DNA from: a virus
Direction: 5' to 3' (one strand)
IMG/VR virus record: IMGVR_UViG_3300028581_000018
Span: 45,450-109,449 of that record
DNA: 64,000 bases
This document shows positions 9,095-63,886 of the stretch, piece after piece. Both the position numbers and the translations under genes were made by a program. The notes beneath the pieces were generated by a model. That model did no database searches, had not been told where the DNA came from, and saw only the letters and a list, made by a program, of their open reading frames with translations. Each line of letters opens with the position of its first letter. The first letter of the stretch is position 1.

Positions 9095-9096
9095 AT

Positions 9097-9732: not shown

Positions 9733-9737
9733 ATCTT

Positions 9738-33887: not shown

Positions 33888-33890
33888 TGA

Positions 33891-34136: not shown

Positions 34137-34146
34137 GGTTGTATTA

Positions 34147-34719: not shown

Positions 34720-34720
34720 G

Positions 34721-35220: not shown

Positions 35221-35222
35221 GA

Positions 35223-35369: not shown

Positions 35370-35388
35370 AAGATTAATATACAAAAAA

Positions 35389-35655: not shown

Positions 35656-35677
35656 TACTTGTTTAATATAAGTTTAA

Positions 35678-36493: not shown

Positions 36494-36512
36494 GAGTATA
36501 AAAATTAAAGAG

Positions 36513-37517
36513 TTACATATTCCAGTTACGCTCAACCTTTTTGGTAAGATCAAGCAAAATATCCTCATGCAACGGATTCTTTAAAAACTCAACAATGTCA
36601 GAAACATTTCTTCCTAGCAAAGCATTTAACTCAGTGTGGTAAATATAACCATCACCTTTGGTAATAATAAACTTGTAGAAAGTAGCGTCTTTAACAATAG
36701 AGCGAATCTTTAAAGTTTCCATGTCTAACTTTGCAGCATCCAAAAACTGATTAGCAGCCCGAGTTTTGTTTGTTTCAACACCTTCACCATTAATGAACCT
36801 ATCCATTGCGTCATAAATAACATCATTGGGTGTGTTCTTTTTATAAATCTGGCTTGCGGCGTCAACTACTTTAGCAACATAGAACAACTTATTGCTATTC
36901 TTATCATACAGCTTTTGCATTTCTGAAAGAGCTTTGTTGCGTAGTTTTTTACCCTCGGTTTTAGTAATAATAGTTTCTTCAGCCTTATCAAGATAAAACT
37001 TAGGTGGCACCGCGCGAGAACGAGCATCATCTAAGCTTTTAGCCACAATAGAAAATCCACCAGCATTAATTGCGTGTAATTTAATCCTATCAAATGGATC
37101 AACAGGATCCAAGAATAATGGATCATTACCACAACGAATAGCAATTTTGTTCCAGAAAGATTTGTTGTTAGGTTGAAGTAATTCAACCTTATTCCAAAAT
37201 TCTTTGTCCTCTGGATCAAGAATGTTAGCTGCTAATTCTCGCTCAAGTTCAACTACAGCTGAACGGATTTCTCGAATGCGTGCTTCACGAACCTCTGGGT
37301 CAAGTTTTTTAATTTCAGGAGCAAACTCATTTAAACCGGTAAGGTAACGAGTTATTCCATTCATTTCAATACAAGCTAATTGCTCTTCGTGGTAGACACC
37401 ATCATAAAGAGTTAAGCCATATTTTTCAAGACCTAAATTAGATACGTTTCCATCAAAGTAAGGTTTCACAGAAACTGCCGTGAGTTTGGTAGGATTTAAA
37501 GTTTCGACAAGTGTCAT
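36513..37517 (-). CDS. Unknown structural-block protein, 334 aa
   Basis: A largely helical protein with NGITRYLTGLNEFAPEIKKL and VVELERELAANILDPEDKEFW near the N-terminus and a charged C-terminus (EDILLDLTKKVERNWNM). Codon use is similar to the MCP gene. It lies between the head fibre gene and the basic cluster. A virion role is inferred from position only. Confidence 0.65.
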   Translation of the reverse strand: MTLVETLNPTKLTAVSVKPYFDGNVSNLGLEKYGLTLYDGVYHEEQLACIEMNGITRYLTGLNEFAPEIKKLDPEVREARIREIRSAVVELERELAANILDPEDKEFWNKVELLQPNNKSFWNKIAIRCGNDPLFLDPVDPFDRIKLHAINAGGFSIVAKSLDDARSRAVPPKFYLDKAEETIITKTEGKKLRNKALSEMQKLYDKNSNKLFYVAKVVDAASQIYKKNTPNDVIYDAMDRFINGEGVETNKTRAANQFLDAAKLDMETLKIRSIVKDATFYKFIITKGDGYIYHTELNALLGRNVSDIVEFLKNPLHEDILLDLTKKVERNWNM

Positions 37518-37539
37518 GAGTTGTTGGTTTTAAAAGGGG

Positions 37540-38034
37540 TTAATTAATTACTAAGAAATGAATAGTTGCCGCTGCGTTTAATACTGCAGATGAAACGTTT
37601 TTAATGTCAACACTAAAAGAACCATTTGCTACAGTACTAATTGATGCTAAAGGATATCCTGTAGAAGCACTAGGATAAGATACAGTAACCAAAATAACAC
37701 TTGTAGTTTTTACAAAACTGTTATTTACAGTAAACTGAAATTCACCATTTGCTGCTGTAGTTAAAGCTACAGTAGTAATTCTACCAGACGCTGAATTAAT
37801 AGTTACTGGCGTTACATTAGATGTTATTTGAGTTACTGTTGTATTGTCTCCCAAAAACTCAGAATATAGGTCAGTAACCAATTCTGTTTTAAAGTTTGAA
37901 AATTCAATAGCCCAAGTTTTGTAACCGTCATCACGAGTAGAATCAGGATTACCAAATAACAATAACGCGTTATCTGGTACAGTAGTCGAAATAATTTCGT
38001 TAGCTACTAAATATGAAAAATTAACTATGTCCAT
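37540..38034 (-). CDS. Head fibre / decoration-type protein, 164 aa
   Basis: The first 75 residues look like an attachment part (NALLLFGNPDSTRDDGYKTW). The rest is an alternating beta pattern with SGRITTVALTTAANGEFQFTV, VTVSYPSASTG and AALNAAATIHFLV-like strands ending in a hydrophobic Asn. Such C-terminal domains are common in head decoration and fibre proteins of phages ('GKITT--LTTAAG--YTLTL...'). Located directly after the MCP terminator. Confidence 0.6.
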   Translation of the reverse strand: MDIVNFSYLVANEIISTTVPDNALLLFGNPDSTRDDGYKTWAIEFSNFKTELVTDLYSEFLGDNTTVTQITSNVTPVTINSASGRITTVALTTAANGEFQFTVNNSFVKTTSVILVTVSYPSASTGYPLASISTVANGSFSVDIKNVSSAVLNAAATIHFLVIN

Positions 38035-38057
38035 GGATTTTATTTTTTATAAGTAAA

Positions 38058-38087
38058 AAATGGGGAGGATTTGATCCCTCCCCATTT
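38058..38087 (-). terminator. Rho-independent terminator after the major capsid gene
   Basis: An 11-bp stem AAATGGGGAGG/CCTCCCCATTT with an 8-nt loop, followed on the minus strand by TTTTTTACTT. A strong terminator of this kind just after the MCP gene is common. Confidence 0.9.
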
Positions 38088-38103
38088 CTACTCAGATTTA
38101 TAA

Positions 38104-39720
38104 TTAGAATGAACCTCCAGTGATTGGGTTGCGCATAACAATCTTCAATACCTTGGTAGGATCTTTTACCCAGATTGCAGGCATAGTCTGTGTCATATAC
38201 ACACGGTAACCGTTGAATTGACCAGAGCTTGCAAATCCTTGAGAGCGACCCATGTAGTCCATGGTACCATTTTGGTAGAACCACTTCAACTGATTATCCC
38301 AAGATAACTTCAATAGGAAGATGTTATCATTGGTGTTATCAGTGATATCAAAGATGATAAAGTTATAAGAAGACAAAGGATAACCATCAATGATTGGGTT
38401 TTCAATGTCATTCGTAAACACGTTATCAAATGCAGGATTCAATACAAATTTTACGTTAGCCAAGAATGGAATCACGTAGCTGGTATATGCAAAACCAAAG
38501 TTCAAGTCCATACCTTTACCAGTGATTGCACCGATATCAGCAGCTTGAATCAACAAACCAGAGCTAATAGCTTCTTGTTTGATGGCTTCATTAACCATAC
38601 GCATACCACCCATACCAGTTTGTACAACTAGTGAACGCATTGGATCTGGGCCTTTGAACTCAACTTTACCATTGAAGAAGTTGAAGATCTCAGAGCGGAA
38701 CAAGTCAAGGTTAAAGTTGTTCTTGTTGTAAACACGCTTGAATGAATTATCAAGCTGTTTCCATAGACCAACTGATAAACGCAAATCATCTGGGCCATCT
38801 TGCTTAACACGTCCACCATGTCCCCACATTAAGTAGGTCTCGATGTCAGTAGCAATTTTGGTTAGGTGAGCTGCTTCCATAGTAGTTAGGAAAGTGCGAG
38901 ACAAATCACCATTATCCATTGAACGCTTAACTGCATCTTTACCCATGGTCTTAACCATATCTTCCAAAGAAGTGATTGAAGGATCCATGCGCTTGTCGAA
39001 GTTACGCCAGATTTCAGTTACAGGTACAGTACCGTCAGCATTCATACCACCTTTGATCATAAGATCAGCGCGAGAAGAAACACTATAATGAACGTGAGCT
39101 TCAGCACCACCTACGTAGTTGTAAAACTCACGATATCCAGCACCGGTTTGAATATCAGAGAAACGCTCTCCATATTCACCACGAGCAGAACCTTTACGGA
39201 ATACGCGTGTACCATTTGCAAGATATTTATTATCCATGAAACGGTAGTTGTCATTGTTCACCAACTGCACAGTATAGATGAATCCATCACCAATAGGTAA
39301 AATATCATCAGCAGTGATGTACAATTCAGCGCCGTTGTATTTGTCATAAGTGATGATATCACCATGACCAAACTCGCGCTTGTTCAATTTGATTTTGAAG
39401 GATTGACCATCAATACCTTTAGTAAGGTTATTAGATTCAATGTCTTCAACAATATAGGGAAGCTCTAAGCTTACCGGGGTTTGCCATTTGTACTCACCGC
39501 GAGCGTTATCAACACTGATAACATTCTTACCACCAAAGGATGACATTTGATAAAGAGGCATTTCTACTTTCTGAGCCATTGCCCAAAGGTCAACGGGGCC
39601 CATATCCATAGGTTCTGCATCTTTCAACATGTTTACCAAGTGGTAAGAATCCACGTGAGAACTGGCAGCATATTTGGTATCTCGAAGGAATATACCATTA
39701 TTTAAAACTGGAGTTGCCAT
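38104..39720 (-). CDS. Major capsid protein, 538 aa
   Basis: Length, position after the scaffold gene, its own strong terminator and highly adapted codons mark this as the MCP. The sequence contains AEAHVHYSVSSRADLMIKGG, then a helical region with LTKIATDIETYLMWGHGG, DNGDLSRTFLTTMEAAHL (long spine-like helices), and a beta-rich end with GYRVYMTQTMPAIWV and VMRNPITGGSF. The HK97-type fold is expected for this group. The phrases are of the sort seen in crAss-related Bacteroidota phages. No protease gene is recognised nearby. Confidence 0.85.
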   Translation of the reverse strand: MATPVLNNGIFLRDTKYAASSHVDSYHLVNMLKDAEPMDMGPVDLWAMAQKVEMPLYQMSSFGGKNVISVDNARGEYKWQTPVSLELPYIVEDIESNNLTKGIDGQSFKIKLNKREFGHGDIITYDKYNGAELYITADDILPIGDGFIYTVQLVNNDNYRFMDNKYLANGTRVFRKGSARGEYGERFSDIQTGAGYREFYNYVGGAEAHVHYSVSSRADLMIKGGMNADGTVPVTEIWRNFDKRMDPSITSLEDMVKTMGKDAVKRSMDNGDLSRTFLTTMEAAHLTKIATDIETYLMWGHGGRVKQDGPDDLRLSVGLWKQLDNSFKRVYNKNNFNLDLFRSEIFNFFNGKVEFKGPDPMRSLVVQTGMGGMRMVNEAIKQEAISSGLLIQAADIGAITGKGMDLNFGFAYTSYVIPFLANVKFVLNPAFDNVFTNDIENPIIDGYPLSSYNFIIFDITDNTNDNIFLLKLSWDNQLKWFYQNGTMDYMGRSQGFASSGQFNGYRVYMTQTMPAIWVKDPTKVLKIVMRNPITGGSF

Positions 39721-39757
39721 TGTTTTGATGTTTGATTAAGGGTTAAAAAATTAAAAG

Positions 39758-41017
39758 TTAAAATCTTTGAAACATATTTTTGTTTGAACGTTGAATAGTT
39801 CTTTTAGGTTTATTTGTTACTGTGTCTTCATCCCGGTCTACTACTGCTGAACTTCTTCTGCGAGCTTCTTCTGTTTTTAGAGAACGCACTGTTTGCTCAG
39901 TAGCTACACGAGTACCTTGAGATTTGACTTTGTTTTTAAATCCATCAGGATCTGCAAGCAGCCATAAAGCTTCAGCAATCAATTCGTGATTAGGTTCAAC
40001 CCATTGATACTTCTCTAGTAAGTGCCCTAACAAGTTTGTAGGTTTTCCACTTATTGAAGGATACCCAGGTTGTACTAATCCTGTATAAAGCATATTTTGT
40101 GTTTTACGATCAAGTTTTACTCCACTGAGTTCACCTTTTTCTAGAACACCATATACACTATCTACAAATTGTCCTGCAATAGCTTGTTGTTTTTGTTTTT
40201 GCTGCTCTTGCTCTGCAATTTTTTTAGCTACTTCTTTTTCACGAACTGCTTCAAGTTTTGGCTTAAACTGGTTAGCCTTTTGCTCTAAGCGATCCATGTC
40301 TTTAAACGTGGCTATTTCCTCTTCAATTTCATCTTGTGTCATATCTCCTTTAAGAGACAGATACTGACGAACAATTAGTTCTTGATCTGAAGAGTCTGAT
40401 GGGTCTAGCTCCATTACTTCATTAACCTGAGCTAGTTGTTGCATCATACCTTTCACATCTGTACCACCTTTAGAAATGTAATCCATAAGATATTGCATTT
40501 CACCAGGCATAGATTGAAAAATCTGCTGAGGAATATCTTGAGATAACTGCTGCTCTTTTTCTTTCATGTTTGCTTCAAACAACTCACGAAAGTCTTTAGC
40601 AGTGTACTCATCTAAAGATTTATCATCATCAAAAGGAAAAAGAACACCTTCTTCAATCATTTTTGAAGCTAGTTCAACAAGACCACTCTTATCAACTTTT
40701 TTGCGACCCCGAGCACTTGGATCTTCTTGCTGGTTGATTAAAGTTTCAAACTCTTCTAAAGCTTCTTGATTTTTTTCAGAATCTTCTTGCGTTTCTGCAG
40801 CAGGTGTATCAGCTTTTGCAGCAGGGGCTGCAGGTTTTAATTTGTCAAGGAACGAAGTATCTACATTTGTAGACGAAAACATATTAGGTTTTTTTTCATC
40901 ATCATCCTCAGCACCAGGAACCATAATGTTCTCTGCACCAGGAAGAGCGAATAGCTCATCAATATTAACGTCAGCTTGTGAAACCTGTGTCACTTCTTCA
41001 TTTGTATTATTTGCCAT
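39758..41017 (-). CDS. Probable scaffolding protein, 419 aa
   Basis: An acidic, Gln/Glu-rich, mostly coiled-coil protein immediately upstream of MCP: EKNQEALEEFETLINQQED, then LEQKANQFKPKLEAVREKE and EQQKQKQQ. The N-terminus (VNIDELFALPGAENIMVPG) is acidic and the C-terminus is basic (KPKRTIQRSNKNMFQRF), as in scaffolds whose C-terminal end contacts the capsid shell. No catalytic residues are seen. The stop is 37 nt before the MCP start. Confidence 0.75.
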   Translation of the reverse strand: MANNTNEEVTQVSQADVNIDELFALPGAENIMVPGAEDDDEKKPNMFSSTNVDTSFLDKLKPAAPAAKADTPAAETQEDSEKNQEALEEFETLINQQEDPSARGRKKVDKSGLVELASKMIEEGVLFPFDDDKSLDEYTAKDFRELFEANMKEKEQQLSQDIPQQIFQSMPGEMQYLMDYISKGGTDVKGMMQQLAQVNEVMELDPSDSSDQELIVRQYLSLKGDMTQDEIEEEIATFKDMDRLEQKANQFKPKLEAVREKEVAKKIAEQEQQKQKQQAIAGQFVDSVYGVLEKGELSGVKLDRKTQNMLYTGLVQPGYPSISGKPTNLLGHLLEKYQWVEPNHELIAEALWLLADPDGFKNKVKSQGTRVATEQTVRSLKTEEARRRSSAVVDRDEDTVTNKPKRTIQRSNKNMFQRF

Positions 41018-41046
41018 TAGTTGTTGGTTTATGGTATTAATATATG

Positions 41047-41054
41047 CAAATTTA
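41047..41054 (-). promoter_or_regulatory. Bacteroidota-type -7 element before scaffold and MCP genes
   Basis: TAAATTTG on the minus strand matches the -7 consensus TAnnTTTG exactly and lies 30 nt upstream of the scaffold ATG within a 106-nt gene-free gap. No good -33 TTTG stands at the expected distance, so I rate it moderate. Confidence 0.5.
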
Positions 41055-41123
41055 TTATATAAACTTTAAAAAGTTACATTGATAAAAAATCAAGAATAAA
41101 ATAAAGTTGATTATATAGCAACT

Positions 41124-43898
41124 CTATTTTTTCTTTTTATCAGATGCCTTTGTCTTTTCTTTTTCTGTAGCTTTTGCATCGTATTGATTTTTGTTTTCTC
41201 TAGCTATTTGAAGCTGAGTATTGTTCTTTTCACGTTCAACTTGTAAACGCTCCCGTTCAATATTTAACTTTTCACCTTCTGTAATTTTACGATTAGTTTC
41301 TTTTTCGCGTTGCAAAGCTGTTTGCTGTTCATACTGTTCAGATTCACGAATGTCACGCATAGCATCTTTATAGTCAGATTGCTGGTTTTTATCAATATCA
41401 ACCATTGACCCATAACCAGCAGCTTTAATTTCAGCAACAAGAATATCGCGTTGACGATCTTTTTGTTTTTCAGCAGCATCAAATTCAAGCTTTCTTTTCT
41501 GTTCTTCCAATCTAGTTTGTTGTTCTTGCTGTGCAAGTTGTTGTTCATGCTGTTGTTGTTCAGCACGTTGAGCATTAGTTTTCTCTTCAATTTTCTTAAG
41601 AGCACCTGAAACATCTGCCATAGACTCAGCTTCAATAATTTGTCCAAGATCATAGATGCTGGCACCAGCTGTATTGTTTTGAACAGCTAACTGTTTTATT
41701 TGATCTAGGATAGCCCTATGATTAGCTTTTGTGGTGCAGTAAACACCAATGTCTCTTAACAACAAATCAGTACCATTCATCTGGAAGTTTACAATCTCAT
41801 CTTTAGTACTAATGTATTGTAAACGAGAAGACGGTTTAGTTGAATAATAATACTGTGCAATGTCAGTGCGCATTTGATGTACTCTAGGCATTAGATAATC
41901 ACAATGCTGTATAAAGTACTGTTCTGTTTGTGCATAAGAGCCAACCACCGCTTGCTCTACAGCAGTAGCAGTTTGTTGACCAATCTGTTGACCTAAACGT
42001 TGTGGGCTTATACCAATAACCTCAAATGCCTGCATTTTAAAGTAATTGGCCAACTGAATCCTAGACATCAACCTTTCTGTTTGAGAAAGATCTAGTTTCT
42101 GGAAGTGGTTAAAGTTTAGCGAGTTTTCAGTATTTGTAATACTTGTATCTAAAGGTAGCATTTGAAAATTCTTCATTGCTACATATGCTTTAGCAAGATT
42201 GTTTCTACCCCAGTCTTCACCAGCTGAATGGCGTGGTAAAGTATTTTGGTCTAATAATATTACCGTACCAAGTTCATCAACTAAAATATCTGCAATCTGG
42301 TTGTTTACAATGTTATAACCAATTTGAAAAGGTTTCATTAAGTCAACCATAGATGTAGATCGCGTATTGCGATCTGAAAATACAGATCCTTCAACAGGTA
42401 GTTTGCAACCATATAAGGTAGTATCACCTTTCATTTGGTAACGCAATCTTCCAGGACGATTCTTTTGTACACCTAGATAAATTGGGTTAATACCACCAGG
42501 ATTATTCATGCCCCAAAAAGATGGGTGATTAGGGCCAATCTTTACACCACCCCAAGTGTCGTTAATCCAAATCCAATCTATGTGCTCACCAAAAATTAAA
42601 TTATCTTTTGCTTTATTCTTAAAAAGTGTAGTATCATAAACAGGTTTATCAGTTACTGTATAATCTTCTCCAATAATAGCTGTTTCTACATTACCTAGTT
42701 CATCTAGTTTAGTCAAGTGTCCAACTCGGCGCTGAGATTTCCAATACACCGTGGTAACACGCAGTAAATGCGCTACTCCAACATCAAAATAATCTTCACC
42801 TTCAGAAAGAATCCAGTTTACAATATCTCCACCATTATTACCTGAGTTATTATAAACAGATGTAAATTGCCGGTATGCTAAACTTGGCATGTTAGTATTC
42901 CACTCATGCGATTTAGTAGCATCGTAGTATGTACCGTCATTTTGATAACCTTGAATAGCATAACCTGCAGAGCGCACAGGGTAAATAGCTTCTAATGATT
43001 TAACTTCATCTTCTGTCATTAAGTAACCATACTTATCAATCACATCAGATACTGACATCATATCTGTTTTGCCAACCCAGTTTCCCTGGGAGATATATCT
43101 TACATCTGGTGATTTATGATAAAAAGTTAGTACAGGATTCCAAAGCTCAACCTCGTAATCATCTTCCATCATGTGAAAATGCCAAAACTCTCTATCTGTA
43201 ATTAGCATGTCACGAAAAGCACGTTCTTCTAATTCTTCAATCTTGAAGCGTTCCATGTCATGTTGCATAAGATGCGTAGCCCACTGTTCACCTTGTGACT
43301 TATAATTTGTTCTAAAGTAGTCTTCAATCTCAGGTAAAGTTTTTAATTTTTCTGGGTTAAGCTCTTGCTGGCCTTCTTCTGATTCTGGATCCATACCCAT
43401 CTCCATCATCTTATTCATAATTTTCATCTGAGCATCTGACATTAGATAGTCTTCTACCATAGACTTCTTTTGTTCAAGAAGTTCATTGTAAGAATACTCA
43501 TCAACAGCTTTAAACGTAATCTTAGTGTTTCTCTTTGCAAATTCTGAAACTAAAACGTTAATTACATTGGGTATAATAGGATAAAACTTTAGCTCTAGTG
43601 CACTATGATCTTCTTGAGTTAGTGTTTCAATTAAATCAGACATCTCATTATTTTCTTCAACAATGTAGTCTGTCTTATCTATAATACCTTTTGCAAGTTT
43701 GTAGTTCTTCATAAGGCGCCGCGCGTTACGGCGCAGTTGCTTTAATCCATTCCACTCTAACCAGTCAACATTCCAAGCCGCCCACTCATCTGATTTATCT
43801 TTATCAGGAATAAACTGCAATGGCTGAGTTACGCTACCTAGCCTATTGTAATCAGCTTTTGCTCCATTCTTAATCTGTAATGCGTTATATATTTGCAT
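41124..43898 (-). CDS. Portal protein, 924 aa
   Basis: It lies directly downstream of TerL (gap 1 nt) and upstream of scaffold and MCP. The size is large, like P22 and crAss-like portals. The N-terminus has a wing-type helical region with WAAWNVDWLEWNGLKQLRRNARR. The stem/clip region includes QQIGQQTATAVEQAVVGSYAQTEQYF. The last about 170 residues are a Gln/Glu-rich coiled barrel helix (AEQQQHEQQLAQQEQQ), followed by a Lys tail. The protein should form the dodecameric DNA gate at one capsid vertex. Confidence 0.85.
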   Translation of the reverse strand: MQIYNALQIKNGAKADYNRLGSVTQPLQFIPDKDKSDEWAAWNVDWLEWNGLKQLRRNARRLMKNYKLAKGIIDKTDYIVEENNEMSDLIETLTQEDHSALELKFYPIIPNVINVLVSEFAKRNTKITFKAVDEYSYNELLEQKKSMVEDYLMSDAQMKIMNKMMEMGMDPESEEGQQELNPEKLKTLPEIEDYFRTNYKSQGEQWATHLMQHDMERFKIEELEERAFRDMLITDREFWHFHMMEDDYEVELWNPVLTFYHKSPDVRYISQGNWVGKTDMMSVSDVIDKYGYLMTEDEVKSLEAIYPVRSAGYAIQGYQNDGTYYDATKSHEWNTNMPSLAYRQFTSVYNNSGNNGGDIVNWILSEGEDYFDVGVAHLLRVTTVYWKSQRRVGHLTKLDELGNVETAIIGEDYTVTDKPVYDTTLFKNKAKDNLIFGEHIDWIWINDTWGGVKIGPNHPSFWGMNNPGGINPIYLGVQKNRPGRLRYQMKGDTTLYGCKLPVEGSVFSDRNTRSTSMVDLMKPFQIGYNIVNNQIADILVDELGTVILLDQNTLPRHSAGEDWGRNNLAKAYVAMKNFQMLPLDTSITNTENSLNFNHFQKLDLSQTERLMSRIQLANYFKMQAFEVIGISPQRLGQQIGQQTATAVEQAVVGSYAQTEQYFIQHCDYLMPRVHQMRTDIAQYYYSTKPSSRLQYISTKDEIVNFQMNGTDLLLRDIGVYCTTKANHRAILDQIKQLAVQNNTAGASIYDLGQIIEAESMADVSGALKKIEEKTNAQRAEQQQHEQQLAQQEQQTRLEEQKRKLEFDAAEKQKDRQRDILVAEIKAAGYGSMVDIDKNQQSDYKDAMRDIRESEQYEQQTALQREKETNRKITEGEKLNIERERLQVEREKNNTQLQIARENKNQYDAKATEKEKTKASDKKKK

Positions 43899-43899
43899 C

Positions 43900-46104
43900 T
43901 TATTTCATATTTTTAAATGGGCTTCTCCTCATACCAGCTGGTAATAAAGACTTACCCATGTGTCTAAACGGACTATTATTAAATTTAGTCATTTTATCTG
44001 ATTTTACCAATTTAGAGTCATCAGTAATTGTACGTCTTGCATAACCTCTGTTTGTTTGCTGGATTTTAGCAAATGCAACTAATGCAGAAAATGCAACTAA
44101 TCTGTCAACGTTAAGACGATCATGATAAGCCTGCATTTCACGCAAAAGCATAATATCAGGTATCCGCTCTACACCAAACTTTGTGCTAACTATAGAACCA
44201 TCTTCAGCAATATCTTGATCTAGGATCTCTTGAAGATACTCAATAGCATATGACAATAAATGACTTTTAAATAATGTACCTGTGTTTTTCCAACCATAGT
44301 CTGCATACACGGCCCGGTTTGATGATATCTCCTTTAAAAACAGAATTTGATCTTTGGGTACTAGGTATTTTTGTTTACGTTTTAACATCATGTATTGTAT
44401 AAACAAGCTAACGTTGTTTTCTACTAGTGTCCACGCGTTATAATATTCAATAATATTCTCTAGTCTTTCATGTGTTTGTTTAATATCATCAAAGCGACCA
44501 CACCAAGATGCTACTATTTTGTCACCTTCAATATAACTTGTAATGTTTGAACCCTCAACTTTTGTAACTTCCGTAGGAGCTTTATATACAAAAATCGAAC
44601 AGAGCGAGTCAGACGTAGTAGTCTTTCCCTCTCCCACAGGGTCAATTGATGCATAATACATACCAAAAGGCGGACTTTTAACAGGGCGCTCATAAATGAT
44701 AACAACGCTTTCTTTGTTATTTGAGTTCTTAGCAATAGGAAATTCATTAATAGGTAATTTACGGGTTTCTTTCATTGTAATAATGTCGTGCTCATCGCGT
44801 ACAAGCTCCACAAACTCCATTGGGTATTCTTTATCTTGAATACGTTTGATCTGGGCATTAACCAGATGCTGAGGAAACTTTGATTCTTTTCTATAAGCAA
44901 ACGCTTCTTCAATGTTGCGCGGGTGCTGAGAAATACGCAACTGATACTTATCTGCAGGTAACTCTTTTCTCCATATATTAAACTGTTCGTCTAATGCAGT
45001 TAAAGCTTCTTCTACTTTAGAATTACCAAATGCATCAATGAATGGTGGCATTGACCATTGCTCTGGAATAAATAACCCTGATCTACCAAGAGTACCGTCT
45101 TTGTCAATAAGTGTAGTTTCTACAGAATAAATGTCATTTATATCTGGTTTGAGAATCATCTCTTTTAGTGGCTCACACTGGTCAAGATCACCAACAGAAC
45201 CCGCTGCTATAAACATACCACTAGTAATAAACCCAGATTTCATTGCAGGGCGTATATACTCAAAGGTATCATTCATCTTTGGTGCAATACCTGCTTCTTC
45301 ATGAAAGAAGTATTTACATGGGCCACCAACACCATTTGTAGGATCCTTTTCAAATGACATACCTTGAATAGTACCTTTAAGACCAACCTCGGTTTTACGA
45401 TTACCCTTTTTAACCTCAATCTTTTGCTGCCACATTAATGTTTTATCTGGGCTAAATGGTCTATACCAAGCTGTATGCTCATTTAAAAAAGCAGCATACT
45501 CGTCTAGCATTTTCCAGGTACCTTTCTCATTAATGTAATCTTTAAGACTAGCACCTATTTTTAAGGTGATACCTTCTTCAAACCATATTTGATTTATAAA
45601 TTTAGCGGAGTGAAAATATGAACTAGCTATCTGACGCTTTTTTAATATTGCTGAATGCTTGTAGTGTAACTCAGCTAGTAACTCATATAATGCCATATGA
45701 TACTGAGCATCTCTAATTTTAGCAAAACCAAAGGTGTTTTCTTCTTTATCATAAATAGGTAAGAAGTTTAACCACATATAGTAGTCTCTACATATATACC
45801 ATGTTTTACTACCAGAGATAATTATTGTTCCATTTCTATTCTTGTTTTTTTGATCATCCCAGTATGTAACAAAGTCTTTGCTCTTTGTAGGAGACGCACA
45901 GTAGTAGTTTTGTTTATTGAAGATTGTAGCCTGCTCATTAAATATTGCAGTATCTTCATTAAATTCATACTTCCCGGGCTCCTTAAAAAGAGGTAACAAG
46001 AACTCTTTAAATTCATCCCTGCTACCAAATTCTGTTACTTCCCAGTTGCCATTACGCCAGGTTGGTATTCTCTCATAAAACTTTAAACCACTTCTACTGA
46101 TCAT
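43900..46104 (-). CDS. Terminase large subunit (TerL), 734 aa
   Basis: The N-terminal ATPase half has a divergent Walker A region (ILKKRQIASSY near residue 155) and a Walker B-like CKYFFHEEAG near residue 265 with catalytic Glu. The C-terminal RNase H-fold nuclease has YASIDPVGEG (Asp near 489), then WTLVENNV (Glu about 80 residues later), and a final Asp in IPDIMLLREM...RLVAFSALVAFAK. This is the motif order of headful-packaging terminases. The gene overlaps the candidate small subunit gene by 11 nt. Confidence 0.93.
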   Translation of the reverse strand: MISRSGLKFYERIPTWRNGNWEVTEFGSRDEFKEFLLPLFKEPGKYEFNEDTAIFNEQATIFNKQNYYCASPTKSKDFVTYWDDQKNKNRNGTIIISGSKTWYICRDYYMWLNFLPIYDKEENTFGFAKIRDAQYHMALYELLAELHYKHSAILKKRQIASSYFHSAKFINQIWFEEGITLKIGASLKDYINEKGTWKMLDEYAAFLNEHTAWYRPFSPDKTLMWQQKIEVKKGNRKTEVGLKGTIQGMSFEKDPTNGVGGPCKYFFHEEAGIAPKMNDTFEYIRPAMKSGFITSGMFIAAGSVGDLDQCEPLKEMILKPDINDIYSVETTLIDKDGTLGRSGLFIPEQWSMPPFIDAFGNSKVEEALTALDEQFNIWRKELPADKYQLRISQHPRNIEEAFAYRKESKFPQHLVNAQIKRIQDKEYPMEFVELVRDEHDIITMKETRKLPINEFPIAKNSNNKESVVIIYERPVKSPPFGMYYASIDPVGEGKTTTSDSLCSIFVYKAPTEVTKVEGSNITSYIEGDKIVASWCGRFDDIKQTHERLENIIEYYNAWTLVENNVSLFIQYMMLKRKQKYLVPKDQILFLKEISSNRAVYADYGWKNTGTLFKSHLLSYAIEYLQEILDQDIAEDGSIVSTKFGVERIPDIMLLREMQAYHDRLNVDRLVAFSALVAFAKIQQTNRGYARRTITDDSKLVKSDKMTKFNNSPFRHMGKSLLPAGMRRSPFKNMK

Positions 46105-55086: not shown

Positions 55087-55434
55087 CTACTTCTCCAAAC
55101 TAGAATCCCGAGCCAATAAAAAATCGCGGATCTCTACACATATCTCATACTGCTCAGTATCCTCATAATACCCCAACATATCATCAATAACCTCATCAGT
55201 AATACCCTCATCGGGGTCGTGCCCTAAAAACAACATCAAATTCTTCTCACGAGCAATACCCAATAACTGCTCATAAGTAACCTTACCAAATAAAATCTTC
55301 CTGGTATTATTAAACCCTACCTCAAAAGCTACATCATCCATATTATCCATGTTGAACTTAATAGCTCGTATACTATCTGACATCTCATCACCAAAATCAC
55401 CCTCTAAATAAAAAGACTCTTCATCGTTTTTCAT
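55087..55434 (-). CDS. Small acidic protein, 115 aa
   Basis: It is acidic (EGDFGDEMSDSIRAIKF; DPDEGITDEVIDDMLGYYED) with a helical C-terminus. I chose the ATG that gives MKNDEESF; a TTG five codons upstream would lie inside the -7 promoter element. It is the most upstream gene of the leftward late region. No family recognised. Confidence 0.65.
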   Translation of the reverse strand: MKNDEESFYLEGDFGDEMSDSIRAIKFNMDNMDDVAFEVGFNNTRKILFGKVTYEQLLGIAREKNLMLFLGHDPDEGITDEVIDDMLGYYEDTEQYEICVEIRDFLLARDSSLEK

Positions 55435-55446
55435 ATTACCAATATA

Positions 55447-55454
55447 CAAATTTA
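55447..55454 (-). promoter_or_regulatory. Bacteroidota-type -7 element at the start of the leftward late region
   Basis: TAAATTTG matches TAnnTTTG exactly, 12 nt before the chosen ATG, so the predicted leader is very short. No matching -33 TTTG is seen, as the upstream DNA changes to C-rich sequence. Confidence 0.5.
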
Positions 55455-55687
55455 CTAGATACCATACAATAACACCCCCCCATACCTACATAAATTTACC
55501 CACCCCCCCCCACCATAGGGATACAAAACAAAATACAATAGAGACTGTAAGTGGGGCCCTATTCGCCGCTCCCCGGCGCGCGCACCTCGCGGGCCCACCC
55601 CCTAGTGCCACGGTGCACTCGCCGCAATGCCACCGCGCGCCAACAAAAAGTTTTCTGGGGAAAACTTTGTTGTTGTCTTGCTATGCT

Positions 55688-55706
55688 GTGCATGCGGTGC
55701 ATGCAC
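55688..55706. repeat. Palindromic site 1 (GTGCATGC-N3-GCATGCAC)
   Basis: Perfect 8-bp arms around GGT. The arms are themselves partly self-complementary (GCATGC). A likely protein-binding site. Confidence 0.65.
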
Positions 55707-55723
55707 TACGTTGTCATCGTGCT

Positions 55724-55742
55724 GTGCATGCTATGCATGCAC
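55724..55742. repeat. Palindromic site 2 (GTGCATGC-N3-GCATGCAC)
   Basis: Perfect 8-bp arms around TAT, 36 nt from site 1. The same arms with a different spacer indicate that the arms, not the centre, are selected. Confidence 0.65.
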
Positions 55743-55771
55743 CTGCTTGCGACACAGCGCAGCGACACAGA

Positions 55772-55813
55772 GCAAGGCATTTCTCTAATACCTTAACCTT
55801 AAACCCTTTTCTT
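55772..55813 (+). promoter_or_regulatory. Repeated leader element, copy 1
   Basis: GCAAGGCATTTCTCTAATA, then a TTAAC/CTTATG-type end reaching the start codon of the 67-aa gene. It is the most divergent of the clear copies. Confidence 0.7.
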
Positions 55814-56017
55814 ATGAGCAATTCTAAGCCTTCTTTTACACCGCGTAAAGTACGCGTTGACCTGTTCTCTGTTGCTTTAGCCGACGATAAAGCCTTGACT
55901 GCTATGCAGACAAAGCTTAATCAATGGCTTACTGCAGGAACATTGGTCAAGTACCAAATACATACGACAAGCACTCATGCTTTGTTTAATGTATGCCGAC
56001 GTAAAGACGCTGAATAA
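55814..56017 (+). CDS. Small cassette protein, 67 aa, unknown
   Basis: The protein begins MSNSKPSFTPRKVRVDLFSV and is basic with a short helix (KALTAMQTKLNQWLTAG). I see no motif. The start is set by the conserved leader ending in CTTATG. Its stop codon lies inside the following terminator hairpin. Codons are richer in G+C than in the late region, as with the following four genes. Confidence 0.65.
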   Translation: MSNSKPSFTPRKVRVDLFSVALADDKALTAMQTKLNQWLTAGTLVKYQIHTTSTHALFNVCRRKDAE

Positions 56018-56028
56018 GCGTCTTTTTT
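56005..56028 (+). terminator. Terminator of cassette gene 1
   Basis: AGACGCT/AGCGTCT stem with a 5-nt loop, followed by TTTTT. It overlaps the end of the coding sequence. Confidence 0.8.
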
Positions 56029-56042
56029 CTTTGTAGGAAGCC

Positions 56043-56085
56043 GCAAGGCATTTCTTTTACCTCTTAACAATTAACCCTATATCTT
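56043..56085 (+). promoter_or_regulatory. Repeated leader element, copy 2
   Basis: GCAAGGCATTTCTTTTA, then CTCTTAACAATTAACC and ATATCTTATG at the start codon. This is closest to the consensus. Confidence 0.75.
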
Positions 56086-56370
56086 ATGAGAACTCCATTC
56101 GGATTTTACAAAACGCCTTTTGGCACAGCCTTGCATTTGCGCTACAAAGACAAAGAAAGCGCAGACCTCATTAGCGAATGCCTTGAGCGCTCTACAATTT
56201 GGCTCGGCAAGAACGACTGCTGGCACATTGAAGGCTTGATTAAGCCTGGCTACGAGCAACTTACCAGAAAAGCCATTCTGCTAAATCGCTCTCGCACATT
56301 ATCTAAGCAGCAGCGGGAAATTCTTGACGAAATCAATGCTATTGACCAGGCTATTGACTTAGGCTACTAA
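56086..56370 (+). CDS. Small cassette protein, 94 aa, unknown
   Basis: A mixed alpha/beta protein: MRTPFGFYKTPFGTALHLRYK, then a helix ISECLERSTIW, then a C-terminal helical tail (SKQQREILDEINAIDQAI). The middle section (STIWLGKNDCWHIEGLIKPG) could be a small DNA-binding or anti-defence fold, but I recognise no family. The unit has its own leader and terminator. Confidence 0.65.
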   Translation: MRTPFGFYKTPFGTALHLRYKDKESADLISECLERSTIWLGKNDCWHIEGLIKPGYEQLTRKAILLNRSRTLSKQQREILDEINAIDQAIDLGY

Positions 56371-56377
56371 CGCATAC

Positions 56378-56405
56378 GCCCCGCATTAAGCGGGGCTTTG
56401 CTTAT
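56378..56405 (+). terminator. Terminator of cassette gene 2
   Basis: GCCCCGC/GCGGGGC stem with ATTAA loop, then TTTGCTTATT. Confidence 0.8.
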
Positions 56406-56410
56406 TCTTC

Positions 56411-56454
56411 GCAAGGGCATTTCTTTTATAACTTAACAATTAAATCTTTTACCT
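56411..56454 (+). promoter_or_regulatory. Repeated leader element, copy 3
   Basis: GCAAGGGCATTTCTTTTA, with one extra G, then ACTTAACAATTAAATC and the ATG of the 69-aa membrane protein. Confidence 0.75.
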
Positions 56455-56664
56455 ATGAAAGCAGTTATCTATCTACTCAAAGCGTGGTTTGTAGCCCTAT
56501 TAACCGCGTTTGCCCTACCATTTAGCCTTAGTCTGTTGGCTGTATTGACAACAGACATTACCTTTCACCAAGTGTTCCACTCTGAATTGTTTTGGTTACC
56601 ATTTGGCTTCATATTGGTTATAATGTTCATTGTAATATGTGGATTTGAACCATATGAAGATTAA
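56455..56664 (+). CDS. Small membrane protein, 69 aa
   Basis: Two hydrophobic segments (LKAWFVALLTAFALPFSLSLLAVL and FWLPFGFILVIMFIVIC, cited by sense) with a short acidic end EPYED. A two-pass inner-membrane protein. Candidates are a superinfection-exclusion or early host-modifying protein; nothing in the sequence decides. Confidence 0.65.
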   Translation: MKAVIYLLKAWFVALLTAFALPFSLSLLAVLTTDITFHQVFHSELFWLPFGFILVIMFIVICGFEPYED

Positions 56665-56689
56665 TATTAGGTTTAGGGTTTAAGTAATT

Positions 56690-56722
56690 GGCTCCGCAGT
56701 AATGCGGGGCCTTTTGCTTTTT
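56690..56722 (+). terminator. Terminator of cassette gene 3
   Basis: GGCTCCGC/GCGGGGCC, 8 bp, loop AGTAAT, then TTTTGCTTTTT. Confidence 0.8.
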
Positions 56723-56798
56723 AAAGAGCGGGAGTGGTTAGACGCAGTGCCCATCTCGGGGGCCATTTATCTTAATCCAGCATGCTTACCTCGACGCG

Positions 56799-56835
56799 GC
56801 AAGGCATTTCTTTTATTACTGAAACCTTATATCTT
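56799..56835 (+). promoter_or_regulatory. Repeated leader element, copy 4
   Basis: GCAAGGCATTTCTTTTA, then TTACTGAAACC and TATATCTTATG at the start of the 70-aa gene. The 76 nt between the previous terminator and this leader contain no ORF. Confidence 0.75.
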
Positions 56836-57048
56836 ATGATCAAACATGCACAAACGGTTGTCACTAAACAAGAGTATTTTGACACCACGCTGCGGAATGG
56901 CGAAACAATCCCTGTTCGTATCGAGCGCGTAATCTATCATCGCACCAAGACGATGACTGTACGCAAATGGTGCTTGAACTCTGGTATGATCATCGACGTG
57001 TTCCGTGATTTGCCTGCACCACCTGAGTTCGCAATCGTGGTCAAGTAG
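56836..57048 (+). CDS. Small cassette protein, 70 aa, unknown
   Basis: Basic beta-rich protein: TVVTKQEYFDTTLRNGETIPVRIERVIYH, cited as TTLRNGETIPV and RIERVIY, then MTVRKWCLNSG. No motif recognised. The start codon is fixed by the leader ending CTTATG. An upstream ATG 54 nt earlier is rejected because it would put the leader within the coding sequence. Confidence 0.65.
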   Translation: MIKHAQTVVTKQEYFDTTLRNGETIPVRIERVIYHRTKTMTVRKWCLNSGMIIDVFRDLPAPPEFAIVVK

Positions 57049-57057
57049 CCAAGCATA

Positions 57058-57083
57058 AGCCCCATTTGGGGCTTTGCTTTTTT
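57058..57083 (+). terminator. Terminator of cassette gene 4
   Basis: AGCCCC/GGGGCT stem, loop ATTT, then TTGCTTTTTTAT. Confidence 0.75.
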
Positions 57084-57100
57084 ATTTGCAATACTATTAG

Positions 57101-57158
57101 GGCATTTCTTTTATTTCTTAAGGCGCTATTGCCACAAAACCCCATAAAATCAAATCAA
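57101..57158 (+). promoter_or_regulatory. Repeated leader element, copy 5 (core plus divergent 3' part)
   Basis: GGCATTTCTTTTA preceded by ATACTATTAG instead of GCAA, with a different sequence up to the ATG. The core is intact, so the GGCATTTCTTTTA part is probably the functional unit. Confidence 0.65.
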
Positions 57159-57692
57159 ATGGGACAACTCAAAGCGACGCTAAACGGCGTCTACAATCGT
57201 AACGGCGAAATCGTCAACCGTTATGTGGTTTCAGGTTCAGCAGCAGACATCGCTGAATTTAAGAAAATCCAAGGTCAATACTTTCGCGAAGACACGCAAG
57301 GTAGGCCCTTGTACTTTCGCCCAAAGTTTGACCCACAAGGGCGACCTCACCCCTCGACGATGCTCATTGAGCCCAATTATCGTGGCGACGGCTTTGTCCC
57401 TGTGTACGACACTATTCTCGCTGACGCAGAATACGCCGAGTCAATTGGCGGTGTCGTAGGACAAGAACTCGGTAAGGCTCTTGCCCTTGAGTTACTCGAA
57501 AAGCGTCGCGCTCTTCGTAGCAATACTCGCGCCGTGGCTCTTGACACGCCTGAACCCATTGAGCAACCGCTCGTTGATGAACAACCCATTGACGACGATT
57601 TCAGCGGGAGCGGGTTAGACGACGAGCCTGTTGCTGAAAAGCCCAAAGCTAAAGCCAAGGCTACCGCAACACCTGATTTGGGGGACATCTAA
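57159..57692 (+). CDS. Cassette protein with acidic/basic low-complexity tail, 177 aa
   Basis: The start giving MGQLKATLNGVYNRNGEIV follows the leader; longer versions read through it. Residues 1-110 look beta-rich (YVVSGSAADIAEFKKIQGQYFRED; PLYFRPKFD). The C-terminal 50 residues are acidic, then Lys/Ala/Pro-rich (EKPKAKAKATATPDLGDI). The shape recalls single-strand DNA-binding proteins with acidic tails, but I cannot confirm an OB fold. Confidence 0.65.
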   Translation: MGQLKATLNGVYNRNGEIVNRYVVSGSAADIAEFKKIQGQYFREDTQGRPLYFRPKFDPQGRPHPSTMLIEPNYRGDGFVPVYDTILADAEYAESIGGVVGQELGKALALELLEKRRALRSNTRAVALDTPEPIEQPLVDEQPIDDDFSGSGLDDEPVAEKPKAKAKATATPDLGDI

Positions 57693-57710
57693 TCACCCGT
57701 TTGGGTGCAC

Positions 57711-57747
57711 AAGCAAGGCAGGTCTCACACACCTGCCTTGCTTTTTC
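57711..57747 (+). terminator. Strong terminator of cassette gene 5
   Basis: A 13-bp stem AAGCAAGGCAGGT/ACCTGCCTTGCTT, 7-nt loop, then TTT. The left arm contains a GCAAGGCA segment that matches the 5' part of the leader element. Confidence 0.85.
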
Positions 57748-57777
57748 TACATTATCCTTTTTTTTCACCATACTATT

Positions 57778-57963
57778 ATGGCATTTCTTTTTCTTCGCAG
57801 GCCCACAGCACAATATCCACGCGCAGCGGGAGTGGGGTTGACACCAAAAAATAGGAAATCGTATCTTGTTGATTATCAAATCCCTAGAGTGAAACCAAAA
57901 CCTCCACTCCCACTCATCACTAGATACAAAATACAAAATTGTTTACGCTGTAACATACGCTGA
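57778..57963 (+). CDS. Doubtful small basic ORF, 61 aa, with a sixth leader-like core
   Basis: The frame starts MAFLFLRRPTAQYPRAAG and is basic and Pro-rich. The bases GGCATTTCTTTTT, preceded by ATACTATTAT as in copy 5, lie over its start codon. So either the leader core is coding here by chance, or a leader has lost its gene. No terminator follows. I rate it as weak. Confidence 0.3.
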   Translation: MAFLFLRRPTAQYPRAAGVGLTPKNRKSYLVDYQIPRVKPKPPLPLITRYKIQNCLRCNIR

Positions 57964-58261
57964 TTATCAAGTAGTTAGTCTCATTTTCCCACCGCGTGGA
58001 TAAACTCTTGTAAACCCTATTGTTTACGCTTTACATTGTTTGCGTATATTCACTGTTGGTAGAGAACTGCATTTATATCGTCAATTACTTTAAGTAACAC
58101 GACGTAAGTGTCTGAGTATCAGTGAGTGGGATACCATATACCCCTTATTATCTAACAATTGATAATCAAACTAATCTTGTATACTTCCTAGTTTAACTAC
58201 TGGATATAGCTTATCTAACATAACTAATTCAACTAACATAACTCTTAAACTCTAATGCTTT
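57964..58261. other. Gene-free region with short repeats
   Basis: TTGTTTACGCT occurs at its edge and again near 58019, and the palindrome-like TTGATNATCAA occurs near 57869, 57961 and 58158. CTAACATAACT is repeated near 58215. No ORF or hairpin terminator is convincing. The repeats look like protein-binding sites before the 58.3-kb gene. Confidence 0.35.
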
Positions 58262-58498: not shown

Positions 58499-58667
58499 CA
58501 ATTAAATTCACCGCATGAACAAACGATTGTGGTACTATTCTAAAATGGGGTGATGACCTACATCAACAACCTACAGTGCGGGGCAGCAATCCTCGTCGCA
58601 ACTAGCATGACTAACCAATAATGTCTTGCACACTTCCTAAGCACGAATTAAACTGCTTCATCATTTT
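58499..58667. other. Non-coding region before RNA element copy 1
   Basis: No ORF above a dozen codons. The sequence holds several short pairings (for example GCAAGTGCT-like fragments near 58625) but I cannot define a structure. It may be the 5' part of a longer RNA. Confidence 0.3.
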
Positions 58668-58787
58668 CCCTTTGCACACTCACTAGTGAGCAGTTGTAAT
58701 ATGACCATTCTCGTAAAAGTTCCCTTAAATGTGGGTTGAGATTTACTCTATGGAGGGCGATAATATATTACAACTGAGTGCAGAGGG
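58668..58787 (+). ncRNA. Structured RNA element, copy 1
   Basis: The outer stem is CCCTTTGCAC/GTGCAGAGGG (10 bp with one G-T). A small hairpin follows (CTCA-CTAG-TGAG), then a 12-bp stem CAGTTGTAATAT/ATATTACAACTG enclosing a 62-nt terminal part with nested pairings (TCTC/GAGA, CCC/GGG). This is a three-way junction. Copy 2 at 59385 keeps both long stems and changes the small hairpin and the tip of the long stem in a compensatory way. No open reading frame covers it. The strand is assumed from neighbouring genes. Confidence 0.7.
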
Positions 58788-59089
58788 ATTACAATATATC
58801 AACTGTAAATAACTTAATTAGGCTTTTTAACCTTTTGTGCCTGAATAAGTTTACACGAATTAGTAATAATTCTGGGGTTGTTGATATTAAACAAAAGTCT
58901 GCCTATTAAATAGGGAAGCTGCAACAGGCGTTAAATCGTGCGAGTAATAGCAGCATACAAGGATCGCAACCTTGGGAAACAAGTATTTACGTGCAAAGAG
59001 GGAATTTGATAGAAATATCAATAATCGACTGTATTTATACAGGAAGACAACTTAATGTACTAAAGGAATACTTGTTTCTTTTAATTTGT
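58788..59089. other. Non-coding stretch between RNA copy 1 and the S10-like ORF
   Basis: Contains several hairpins: CAAGG-N7-CCTTG near 58960, and GCCTATTAAATAGG near 58903. The segment GTGCAAAGAGGG at 58991-59002 could pair with the 5' arm of RNA copy 1 as an alternative to its own 3' arm, which hints at a switch. A GTG-started extension of the ORF begins there, but I prefer the ATG at 59090. Confidence 0.35.
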
Positions 59090-59332: not shown

Positions 59333-59384
59333 TAAAAAGGTTGGTTAATGCTGGAATAACCATAAAGCATTATTTTTAATTTTT
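59333..59384. other. Short hairpin-containing spacer before RNA copy 2
   Basis: AATGC...GCATT brackets GGAATAACC about 10 nt after the S10-like stop. It is followed by TTTTTAATTTTT, so it may end the upstream transcript. Confidence 0.4.
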
Positions 59385-59497
59385 CCCTTTGCACTAACCG
59401 TAAGGTGAGCAGTTGTAATGTTACCTATTTAGGTTATGAAAAGACATTGGCGAGTTTTATACTCATTAGTCTTAACATTACAACTGAGTGCAGAGGG
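59385..59497 (+). ncRNA. Structured RNA element, copy 2
   Basis: The outer stem is the same 10 bp as in copy 1 (CCCTTTGCAC/GTGCAGAGGG). The small hairpin is ACC-GTAA-GGT, where copy 1 has CTCA-CTAG-TGAG. The inner stem is 14 bp, CAGTTGTAATGTTA/TAACATTACAACTG. The first ten pairs equal copy 1 and the tip differs with pairing preserved. The terminal loop differs in sequence. These compensatory differences indicate that RNA structure is selected. Confidence 0.7.
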
Positions 59498-59740
59498 TAA
59501 ATAAAAAACTCAATAACTTCCCAAGATGTTGAGAGCACAAGTTTTTCTTTGATAATGAGGAGTATAGCCTCACAGTCCGTAGTTTTATAACTAAACCCGT
59601 CTGAGCAGCCCACGCTTATAATATCAAAGTTTTAGGTGTAAAACACAGGATTTTATCTGGTAGACTTCATTTATCAGAGGCTTTATGGTGAGGCTGAAAC
59701 CATTTTTTATTAACCATTTAACCTCTAAAACAAATACATC
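59498..59740. other. Non-coding region after RNA copy 2
   Basis: No ORF. CTTTGATA at 59547 can pair with TATCAAAG at 59619, enclosing a region with a GAGG/CCTC hairpin (AATGAGGAGTATAGCCTCA). This suggests a further structured RNA of about 80 nt. I do not recognise it. Confidence 0.4.
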
Positions 59741-62897: not shown

Positions 62898-63118
62898 TAG
62901 TCAGGTGGCGGAATTGGTAGAGCAAGTTGAAATAAACTGGGAGGAACACCGAGAGGAAGTAATGGCTCACAATCCCCTATCAAAACGGTAGACGCACTTA
63001 TAGAAGAATCAGGGATTGACTCCTGATACCTTAACCATAAGGTAAAGCATTGTTGAATGATGCAACTATAAGATTTGGGTGTACACTCAAATACAGGTTC
63101 AAATCCTGTCCTCGGCTA
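62898..63118 (+). tRNA. tRNA-Leu-like sequence with two insertions
   Basis: The start (TAGTCAGGTGGCGGAATTGGTAGA, cited as GGCGGAATTGGTAGA) has a Leu-type D-arm. The Leu D-loop continuation (GGTAGACGCAC) appears 70 nt later. CTTATAG and CTATAAG can pair around a further about 62-nt insert with three hairpins. A long variable-arm-like hairpin (ATTTGGGTG/CACTCAAAT), a perfect T-arm (CAGG-TTCAAAT-CCTG) and CCTCGGCTA follow. The insert near the D-loop resembles group I intron P and Q elements (AAACTGGGAGG; CACAATCCCC). The 5' acceptor strand lacks one base relative to the 3' strand. Its function is unclear. Confidence 0.35.
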
Positions 63119-63159
63119 GACAAGTTGTATGTGGGAGGTAGAAATATCTCCTACATCTC

Positions 63160-63190
63160 TTGTTTCTTAACAAGAAGGTTCGTATATTTG
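63160..63190 (+). promoter_or_regulatory. Bacteroidota-type promoter for the HNH gene
   Basis: CTTG, 20 nt, then TATATTTG: the -7 matches TAnnTTTG exactly and the TTG of -33 is at the ideal distance. The start codon of the HNH gene is 20 nt downstream. A GACTAC directly after the -7 is noted. Confidence 0.7.
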
Positions 63191-63210
63191 TGACTACAAA
63201 ATATAAGTAT

Positions 63211-63624
63211 ATGAAAAGATTTTTTGACAAAGTAGAAAAGACTGATACTTGCTGGTTGTGGAAAGCAGCTATTAGAGGTAAAACAAGATATGGTGCATTT
63301 AAACTTAATGGTAAAGTTATAGATGCTCATAGAATATCTTATGAATTACACAATGGGATTATTCCTGATGGGATGTATGTTTGTCACACTTGTGATAATA
63401 GAAAGTGTGTAAACCCTAATCATTTATTTTTAGGTTCTCCTAAAGATAATTGGCAAGATGGATTTGATAAACAAAGAATTAAACCATTAGGAGGAATAGA
63501 TACAGAGAAATTAAAAAAACATCCAAGTAGAGGTGCTTATTTAAGAGGATGTAGATGTGATGAATGTAAAGCTATCAATAACATGATGGTTAAAAGATAT
63601 AGGGAAGGATTAAAAAATAAATAA
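63211..63624 (+). CDS. HNH homing endonuclease, 137 aa
   Basis: The start giving MKRFFDKVEKT follows a clear promoter. Motifs: CWLWKAAIRG, AHRISYELHNG, VCHTCDNRKCVNPNHLFLG, which is the HNH_3 core with two zinc Cys pairs, and RGCRCDECKA at the end. The gene is surrounded by tRNA-like pieces. Its stop codon lies in a hairpin (GGATTA/TAATCC) whose end continues into a tRNA-like 3' end. Such enzymes often move introns or themselves into tRNA genes. Confidence 0.9.
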   Translation: MKRFFDKVEKTDTCWLWKAAIRGKTRYGAFKLNGKVIDAHRISYELHNGIIPDGMYVCHTCDNRKCVNPNHLFLGSPKDNWQDGFDKQRIKPLGGIDTEKLKKHPSRGAYLRGCRCDECKAINNMMVKRYREGLKNK

Positions 63625-63630
63625 TCCTGT

Positions 63631-63638
63631 CCTGACTA
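63631..63638 (+). other. tRNA-like 3' end after the HNH gene
   Basis: CCTGACTA follows AATCCTGT, as in the 3' part of a tRNA (T-arm end plus acceptor). It is complementary to TAGTCAGG at 62898 and at 63798. A 13-bp inverted repeat (63641-63653 with 63779-63791) continues the pairing with the 63798 copy. Confidence 0.5.
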
Positions 63639-63797
63639 CAAAACACATATCACAAATAAAAATGTGATTTACTTTGAAATAGCCAATTATAAGCCAACAT
63701 AAAGCTGTTGGGTACAGACGGAGTAATTAACCTGAGTATAGAGCAACAATTGTGACATTGTAACAAATACCCATTTGAGTGATATGTGTTTAAAATA

Positions 63798-63870
63798 TAG
63801 TCAGGTAACGTTAATCGGCTAAACACCCATAAATCTTTGGGATCCCAGGTTCAAATCCTGTCCTCGACTA
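63798..63870 (+). tRNA. tRNA-like sequence of uncertain identity
   Basis: A 73-nt segment with a D-arm (GTT-AATCGGCTA-AAC, with the usual A, GG and A), an anticodon-arm-like CCCA/TGGG hairpin that is one base short, a perfect T-arm (CAGG-TTCAAAT-CCTG) and a 3' strand CCTCGACTA. The 5' strand (GTCAGG) lacks one base to match GTCGAGG. I cannot name the anticodon. It is either a divergent phage tRNA, a decayed one, or the 3' end of a group I intron. Confidence 0.35.
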
Positions 63871-63886
63871 CTAAAAATTGAAAGTT

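Follow-up and report, generated by a model that had tools for sequence, protein, structure and literature searches.

Arrays of single-gene units with lineage-specific leader cores in crAss-like phages: putative early promoters of the phages' own virion RNA polymerase

The window analysed here, a stretch of 64,000 nucleotides, comprises bases 45450-109449 of the 109,449-base virus record IMGVR_UViG_3300028581_000018. Its minus strand holds the late block, and the plus-strand genes start with an array of small genes. The initial annotation had described five genes in a row, each with a leader that carries a repeated core and each with a terminator of its own, and inspection of the locus bears this out (cores at 55776-57101, with five hairpins). 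The features, in window coordinates, are as follows.

55776-55788, plus strand: core 1, GGCATTTCTCTAA, with two mismatches to the core and GCAA before it as in copies 2 and 4; putative early promoter
55814-56017, plus strand: gene 1, 67 aa, with a predicted beta-alpha-beta-beta fold
56003-56025, plus strand: terminator of unit 1, a hairpin plus T-run with the stop codon of gene 1 inside the loop
56047-56059, plus strand: core 2, exact GGCATTTCTTTTA
56086-56370, plus strand: gene 2, 94 aa, with a homologue in the related contig G053
56378-56396, plus strand: terminator of unit 2, hairpin plus T-run
56416-56428, plus strand: core 3, exact GGCATTTCTTTTA
56455-56664, plus strand: gene 3, 69 aa, hydrophobic and probably a membrane protein, with homologues in L226, G053 and G054
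56690-56711, plus strand: terminator of unit 3, hairpin plus T-run
56803-56815, plus strand: core 4, exact GGCATTTCTTTTA
56836-57048, plus strand: gene 4, 70 aa, with close relatives 65-70% identical
57057-57074, plus strand: terminator of unit 4, hairpin plus T-run
57101-57113, plus strand: core 5, exact GGCATTTCTTTTA
57159-57692, plus strand: gene 5, 177 aa, the last protein gene of the array, with an acidic tail predicted at low confidence
57712-57742, plus strand: terminator of unit 5, a 12-bp stem (57712-57723 with 57731-57742) followed by T5, read directly from the sequence
57780-57792, plus strand: core 6, GGCATTTCTTTTT, with one mismatch, over a non-coding stretch; the next ORF of at least 60 aa begins 469 nt on
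57929-58178, plus strand: non-coding stretch downstream of core 6, containing blocks that are almost unchanged in L226, G053 and G054

The core lies 20-45 nt ahead of the ATG in this phage, and AT-rich sequence with TTAA follows on its 3' side. The GCAAG upstream of the core, which had been read as part of the leader, is confined to copies 1-4. The sixth core had been placed over a doubtful ORF; the core itself is real, as relatives also have such a last copy, and what it overlies is the non-coding stretch. The blocks of that stretch include ATTGTTTACG twice and palindromic TTGATWATCAA sites, and no significant RNA fold was found across 57929-58178, which is possibly an origin or a set of protein-binding sites rather than an RNA. 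The G+C content of the array (55400-57800) is 40-52%, as against 26-40% in the flanking early genes, and a GC-rich palindromic sequence lies at 55560-55770. Further into the early region, a long element resembling a hairpin RNA (CCCTTTGCAC...GAGCAGTTGTAAT...ATTACAACTGAGTGCAGAGGG) is present twice, at 58665-58800 and 59380-59505, with folding z-scores of -5.2 and -7.7 and no match in Rfam; similar elements are present in L226 (about 210-120, minus strand) and L228 (about 3240-3050, minus strand). An Rfam search of the window and five relatives returned nothing relevant. At 62905-63871, tRNA-like pieces (GGTTCAAATCCTGTCCTCGRCTA at 63096 and 63848) flank an ORF at 63204-63624 with the look of an HNH endonuclease; ARAGORN reported no tRNA, and these pieces could possibly be intron-bearing tRNA genes.

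With one mismatch allowed, the core is matched 5 times in the window, where 0.28 matches are expected, and none of 100 shuffles gave as many. Across the whole 109,449-base record all 5 matches lie on the plus strand inside the array, and none was found on the other strand at the same threshold. The random scatter over the genome that the initial annotation had named as counting against its reading is thus not seen. Allowing two mismatches yields 9 matches against 4.6 expected, which is not striking, and the signal therefore resides in the tightness of the core together with its clustering and position.

The phage itself is a distant member of the Crassvirales, judging from its protein sequences. 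Its terminase matches crAss-like records, and its structural proteins do likewise, a 1,680-aa structural protein matching csAssE-Sib, Cellulophaga phi17:2 and Leptolyngbya phage Lbo-JY46. Identity to crAss-like proteins is low (22-28% overall, about 25-28% for the 1,680-aa protein), thereby pointing to a distant lineage. By coverage, the best structural-protein match (window 18016-23058) is to the cyanophage Lbo-JY46, which leaves some doubt about the host phylum of this crAss-like phage. The array and its surroundings recur unchanged in a second contig, IMGVR_UViG_3300027728_000058. A 15-mer scan of viral contigs gave mostly chance matches and one contig (L023) with an identical array, and a DNA search of phages for the array found none. 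The phage and its relatives are uncultured, and we take their source samples to be freshwater.

Relatives were drawn from a collection of viral contigs by scans with the terminase, gene 1 and the RNA polymerase (RNAP). The same promoter-gene-terminator architecture is present in at least 18 other crAss-like contigs, with 6-16 cores each, placed between the late and early genes. The core, however, differs from lineage to lineage (TACATTCATTTRAT, GAATATCTTTTATA, TAAACAGCTCA, AAAGTCCTTAATGA, CAACTTTTATTG and others), an observation that goes beyond the initial annotation, whose proposal of a motif search in the genome and its relatives thus gave a clustered core here and a different one in each related lineage. 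The cores assigned to individual contigs are given below.

G053 and G054: TACATTCATTTRAT (the G053 form to set beside GGCATTTCTTTTA is TACATTCATTTAA)
L226: GAATATCTTTTATA
G018 (L228): TAAACAGCTCA
G027: AAAGTCCTTAATGA
G023 and G026: CAACTTTTATTGTA
G060: TAAACATCTTTATA
L285: AACATCTTATTAC
L288: TTTAATCTTTAATAA
L276: TTTCCACTCATAAT
L299: TAACACTCTTTATA
L301: AATATCATTTGAA

Aligned by eye, the cores loosely fit AACAnCTYTTATA. They were located by region scans, a genome-wide k-mer ranking having scored poorly. In the five records scanned whole (that of the window and four relatives) the cores are concentrated on the early strand and lie almost only in the array; stray matches are few, with one further one-mismatch match in G018 and the most in G026, where the short 9-nt core that was used has a few elsewhere. 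De novo examination of 13 further arrays recovered an 11-mer common to 5-12 leaders, against a maximum of 2-5 in shuffles. The same automatic test on the window's own array gave 3 leaders against 3 in shuffles, with wrong start codons chosen, while the region search recovered all six of its cores. No repeated core was found near the corresponding junction in the relatives G057, G062 and G063, and the array is absent from the isolates phi14:2, crAss001 and Lbo-JY46 and is therefore not general to crAss-like phages.

The arrays share a tight layout. Measured over 19 arrays, the distance from the hairpin of the terminator ahead to the start of the core has a median of 13 nt (quartiles 8-19, n=134, the terminator finder having missed some units, for example 8 of 14 in G027), which leaves little room for another promoter. 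Conserved information is confined to the core of about 13-15 nt and its 3' side, with positions -40 to -20 at background. In 14 of the 19 arrays no ORF lies within 75 nt of the last core, and in the clade of the window's phage this core precedes the non-coding sequence with nearly invariant blocks. In the arrays of G018 (L228), L285 and L288, many terminator loops hold a stop codon (GGGGAGTAATCCCC and then a T-run), so that gene end and terminator overlap.

These features bear on the choice offered by the initial annotation between a phage-RNAP promoter and a translation element. Were the core a 5' leader RNA element, such as a translation enhancer or a stability or processing site, with the promoter elsewhere, its position 20-45 nt before the ATG would fall inside the leader if transcription began further up, and the AT-rich, TTAA-bearing stretch after it would be in keeping. 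A last copy over non-coding sequence in most lineages argues against this, as do the variable distance to the ATG and the short gap behind the terminator with nothing common upstream; we consider such an element quite unlikely, and the promoter alternative is the one that gains support.

How the cores change was examined in the window's phage, G053, G054 and L226, four genomes with orthologous array genes in common. Within one genome, the cores of different genes are on average 88% identical (0.88, n=66), a value that is partly by construction, the cores having been located via similarity to the consensus of their genome. Between genomes, the cores belonging to one and the same gene show only 49% identity (0.49, n=24, leaving out the near-identical pair G053-G054). 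The 20 nt on either side of the core are 37-47% identical in both comparisons. Ahead of gene 4, the 13 nt before the core (CTCGACGCGGCAA) are identical in the window and G053, and the core differs. The copies of a genome thus stay alike and diverge from those of other genomes as a set, a pattern that requires either a common reader or homogenisation and is not expected of a ribosomal element. Homogenisation would be at work if the cores were recombination sites of a cassette system, alike through recombination or gene conversion. The strongly varying gene content of the arrays would suit this, as would the shuffling that PeSLs of T4-like phages are reported to mediate in the account given in PMC4503421. 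The likeness, nevertheless, is limited to 13-15 nt with flanks that are not homogenised; ahead of gene 4 it is the flank that was conserved while the core changed, and family searches identified no recombinase gene near the array. We regard recombination sites as very improbable, and the unhomogenised flanks favour a common trans-acting reader.

Such a reader could be the host RNAP, guided either by one of the host's sigma factors or by a phage factor made early that redirects it. The placement of the array before the early genes would suit early transcription by the host, and in phi14:2 and crAss001 the middle and late genes are thought to be served by the host RNAP (PMC8375218). Yet the cores do not resemble a Bacteroidota promoter, as had been stated in the initial annotation: the housekeeping element TAnnTTTG near -7 occurs in 2 of 142 leaders, against 4.7 expected. 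There is no second box upstream of the core, a search of the record revealed no sigma70 region 2 domain, and strong divergence of the core between phage lineages combined with agreement within a genome speaks further against the host enzyme, which is in our view an unlikely reader.

The favoured candidate is a polymerase of the phage's own, the presence of which the initial annotation had suggested checking, and the record encodes one. A gene at record positions 32264-44413 specifies a protein of 4,049 aa. Single-sequence searches with it gave no match, and a profile was needed, built from its catalytic region aligned with six relatives (seven members). Against PDB sequences this profile retrieved phi14:2 gp66 (6vr4) with E=5e-37, all others being above 0.02, and hhalign gave a probability of 99.9 for the pair. 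This giant protein has the DxDxD catalytic motif, in the form KSGGDFDFDK versus KTGSDFDIDK in gp66. On these sequence grounds we identify it as a relative of the phi14:2 virion RNA polymerase. All crAss-like phages are said to have such an RNAP, although the isolates named above show no array. A search for a T7-like RNAP gave no match in the record and likewise none in control genomes. In the contig L302, the giant RNAP protein (265-12414, minus strand) has a C-terminal 2OG-Fe(II) oxygenase-like stretch at residues 3736-3867 (E=2e-5, below the cut-off of Pfam). The phi14:2 gp66 is a virion component that transcribes the early genes (PMC7886860, PMC10136315), and by homology with it the 4,049-aa protein would be packed in the virion and injected. 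RNAP and core also vary in parallel: where the RNAP cores are 88-98% identical the DNA core is the same, at 72% (the value for G053) it is a variant, and below about 50% it is mostly a different one, although this correlation does not single out the RNAP among phage-encoded factors that descend with it, as the DNA cores also follow phylogeny.

We therefore favour, with a probability of about 0.8, the reading of the array cores as putative early promoters of the phage's own virion RNAP that drift along with the polymerase. One short signal in many copies would probably thereby switch on small single genes at the start of infection. The array would represent a set of single-gene early transcription units, in which each core of 13-15 bp would be the whole promoter, bound by the injected RNAP. 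Transcription would start at the core or just downstream, pass through the AT-rich leader and a single small gene and end at the terminator of that gene; the last promoter would yield a conserved non-coding transcript or a long leader. A single polymerase reading all copies would hold those of a genome to one sequence, and as its specificity drifted all copies would drift along, giving each lineage its own core.

Several known systems offer parallels. The phi14:2 phage shares with ours the homologous catalytic region with the DFDxD motif, the position of the RNAP at the far end of the late block and early genes on the opposite strand, but differs in having no such array and no repeated core. 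The early promoter of phage AR9 is AAATATATATTAT-(6N)-G (PMC5312081). Like those of the AR9/phiKZ-like virion RNAPs, our cores are compact conserved elements of ~13 nt with no -35 box before genes that are, here, presumed to be early, the reader there being a virion enzyme of multisubunit type and here putatively the gp66 relative; the single extended element without a second box is that of a two-barrel vRNAP promoter. Here, in contrast, the phage group is another, the polymerase is a single chain, the element differs between close lineages, and the units are packed into a single array in which a terminator follows almost every gene. The PeSL cassettes of T4-like phages (Arbiol 2010, Comeau 2014), as far as they are presented in the work citing them (PMC4503421), are similar in setting an early promoter and a terminator hairpin between small accessory genes with strong gene turnover. 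Our arrays have this layout if the core is taken as the early promoter; the host-type promoter described for PeSLs was not found, the core being unlike host promoters and lineage-specific. The virion RNAP of phage N4 is of the T7-like single-subunit type. N4 resembles our phage in possessing early genes and a giant (here putative) virion RNAP, and differs in its hairpin promoters (PMC4496689), the cores here lacking a conserved hairpin: an N4-type inverted repeat is present at none of the 6 cores of the window, and most lineages are near the shuffled rate, with G023 above it (7 of 10 versus 0.35). No description of the phi14:2 gp66 promoters was found in reviews (PMC7886860, PMC10136315) and other literature consulted, the original gp66 paper aside; if that paper (doi 10.1038/s41586-020-2921-5) reports promoters, the novelty lies in the arrays and the lineage-specific cores.

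The genes of the arrays turn over quickly: their 162 proteins in 19 arrays fall into 87 clusters, of which 63 are singletons, supporting the earlier suggestion that such units are a place of gene gain and loss. Being independent, the units would make the array an easy place to acquire or discard host-takeover genes, probably one by one. Only the gene 1 family is widespread (16 of 19 arrays, many of which were found through this family). Searches of the array proteins against Pfam and PHROGs gave no usable match. The structure of gene 1 is predicted well (pLDDT 86), with no PDB match at E below 0.001; that of gene 5 is of low confidence and matched nothing, and a role of gene 5 as a single-stranded DNA-binding protein was not supported.

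The crAss-like phages are among the most abundant known, and the structure of a virion RNAP of theirs has been solved. From the arrays, at least ten natural variants of the core are available as candidate promoters, and for several of them the sequence of the matching polymerase is at hand as well, so that it can be tested directly how the polymerase recognises its promoter and how the two co-evolve. The polymerase-core pairs could also find use as orthogonal transcription tools. In addition, the arrays mark a pool of small genes that change fast and probably rank among the earliest to act on the host. We think it somewhat more probable than its converse that a whole clade of crAss-like phages uses arrays of one-gene units to express its first genes, through compact promoters that no enzyme but the injected phage polymerase reads, and that the polymerase-promoter pair drifts fast enough to give each lineage a private promoter. 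If so, private promoters would limit which foreign units are usable after gene exchange between lineages.
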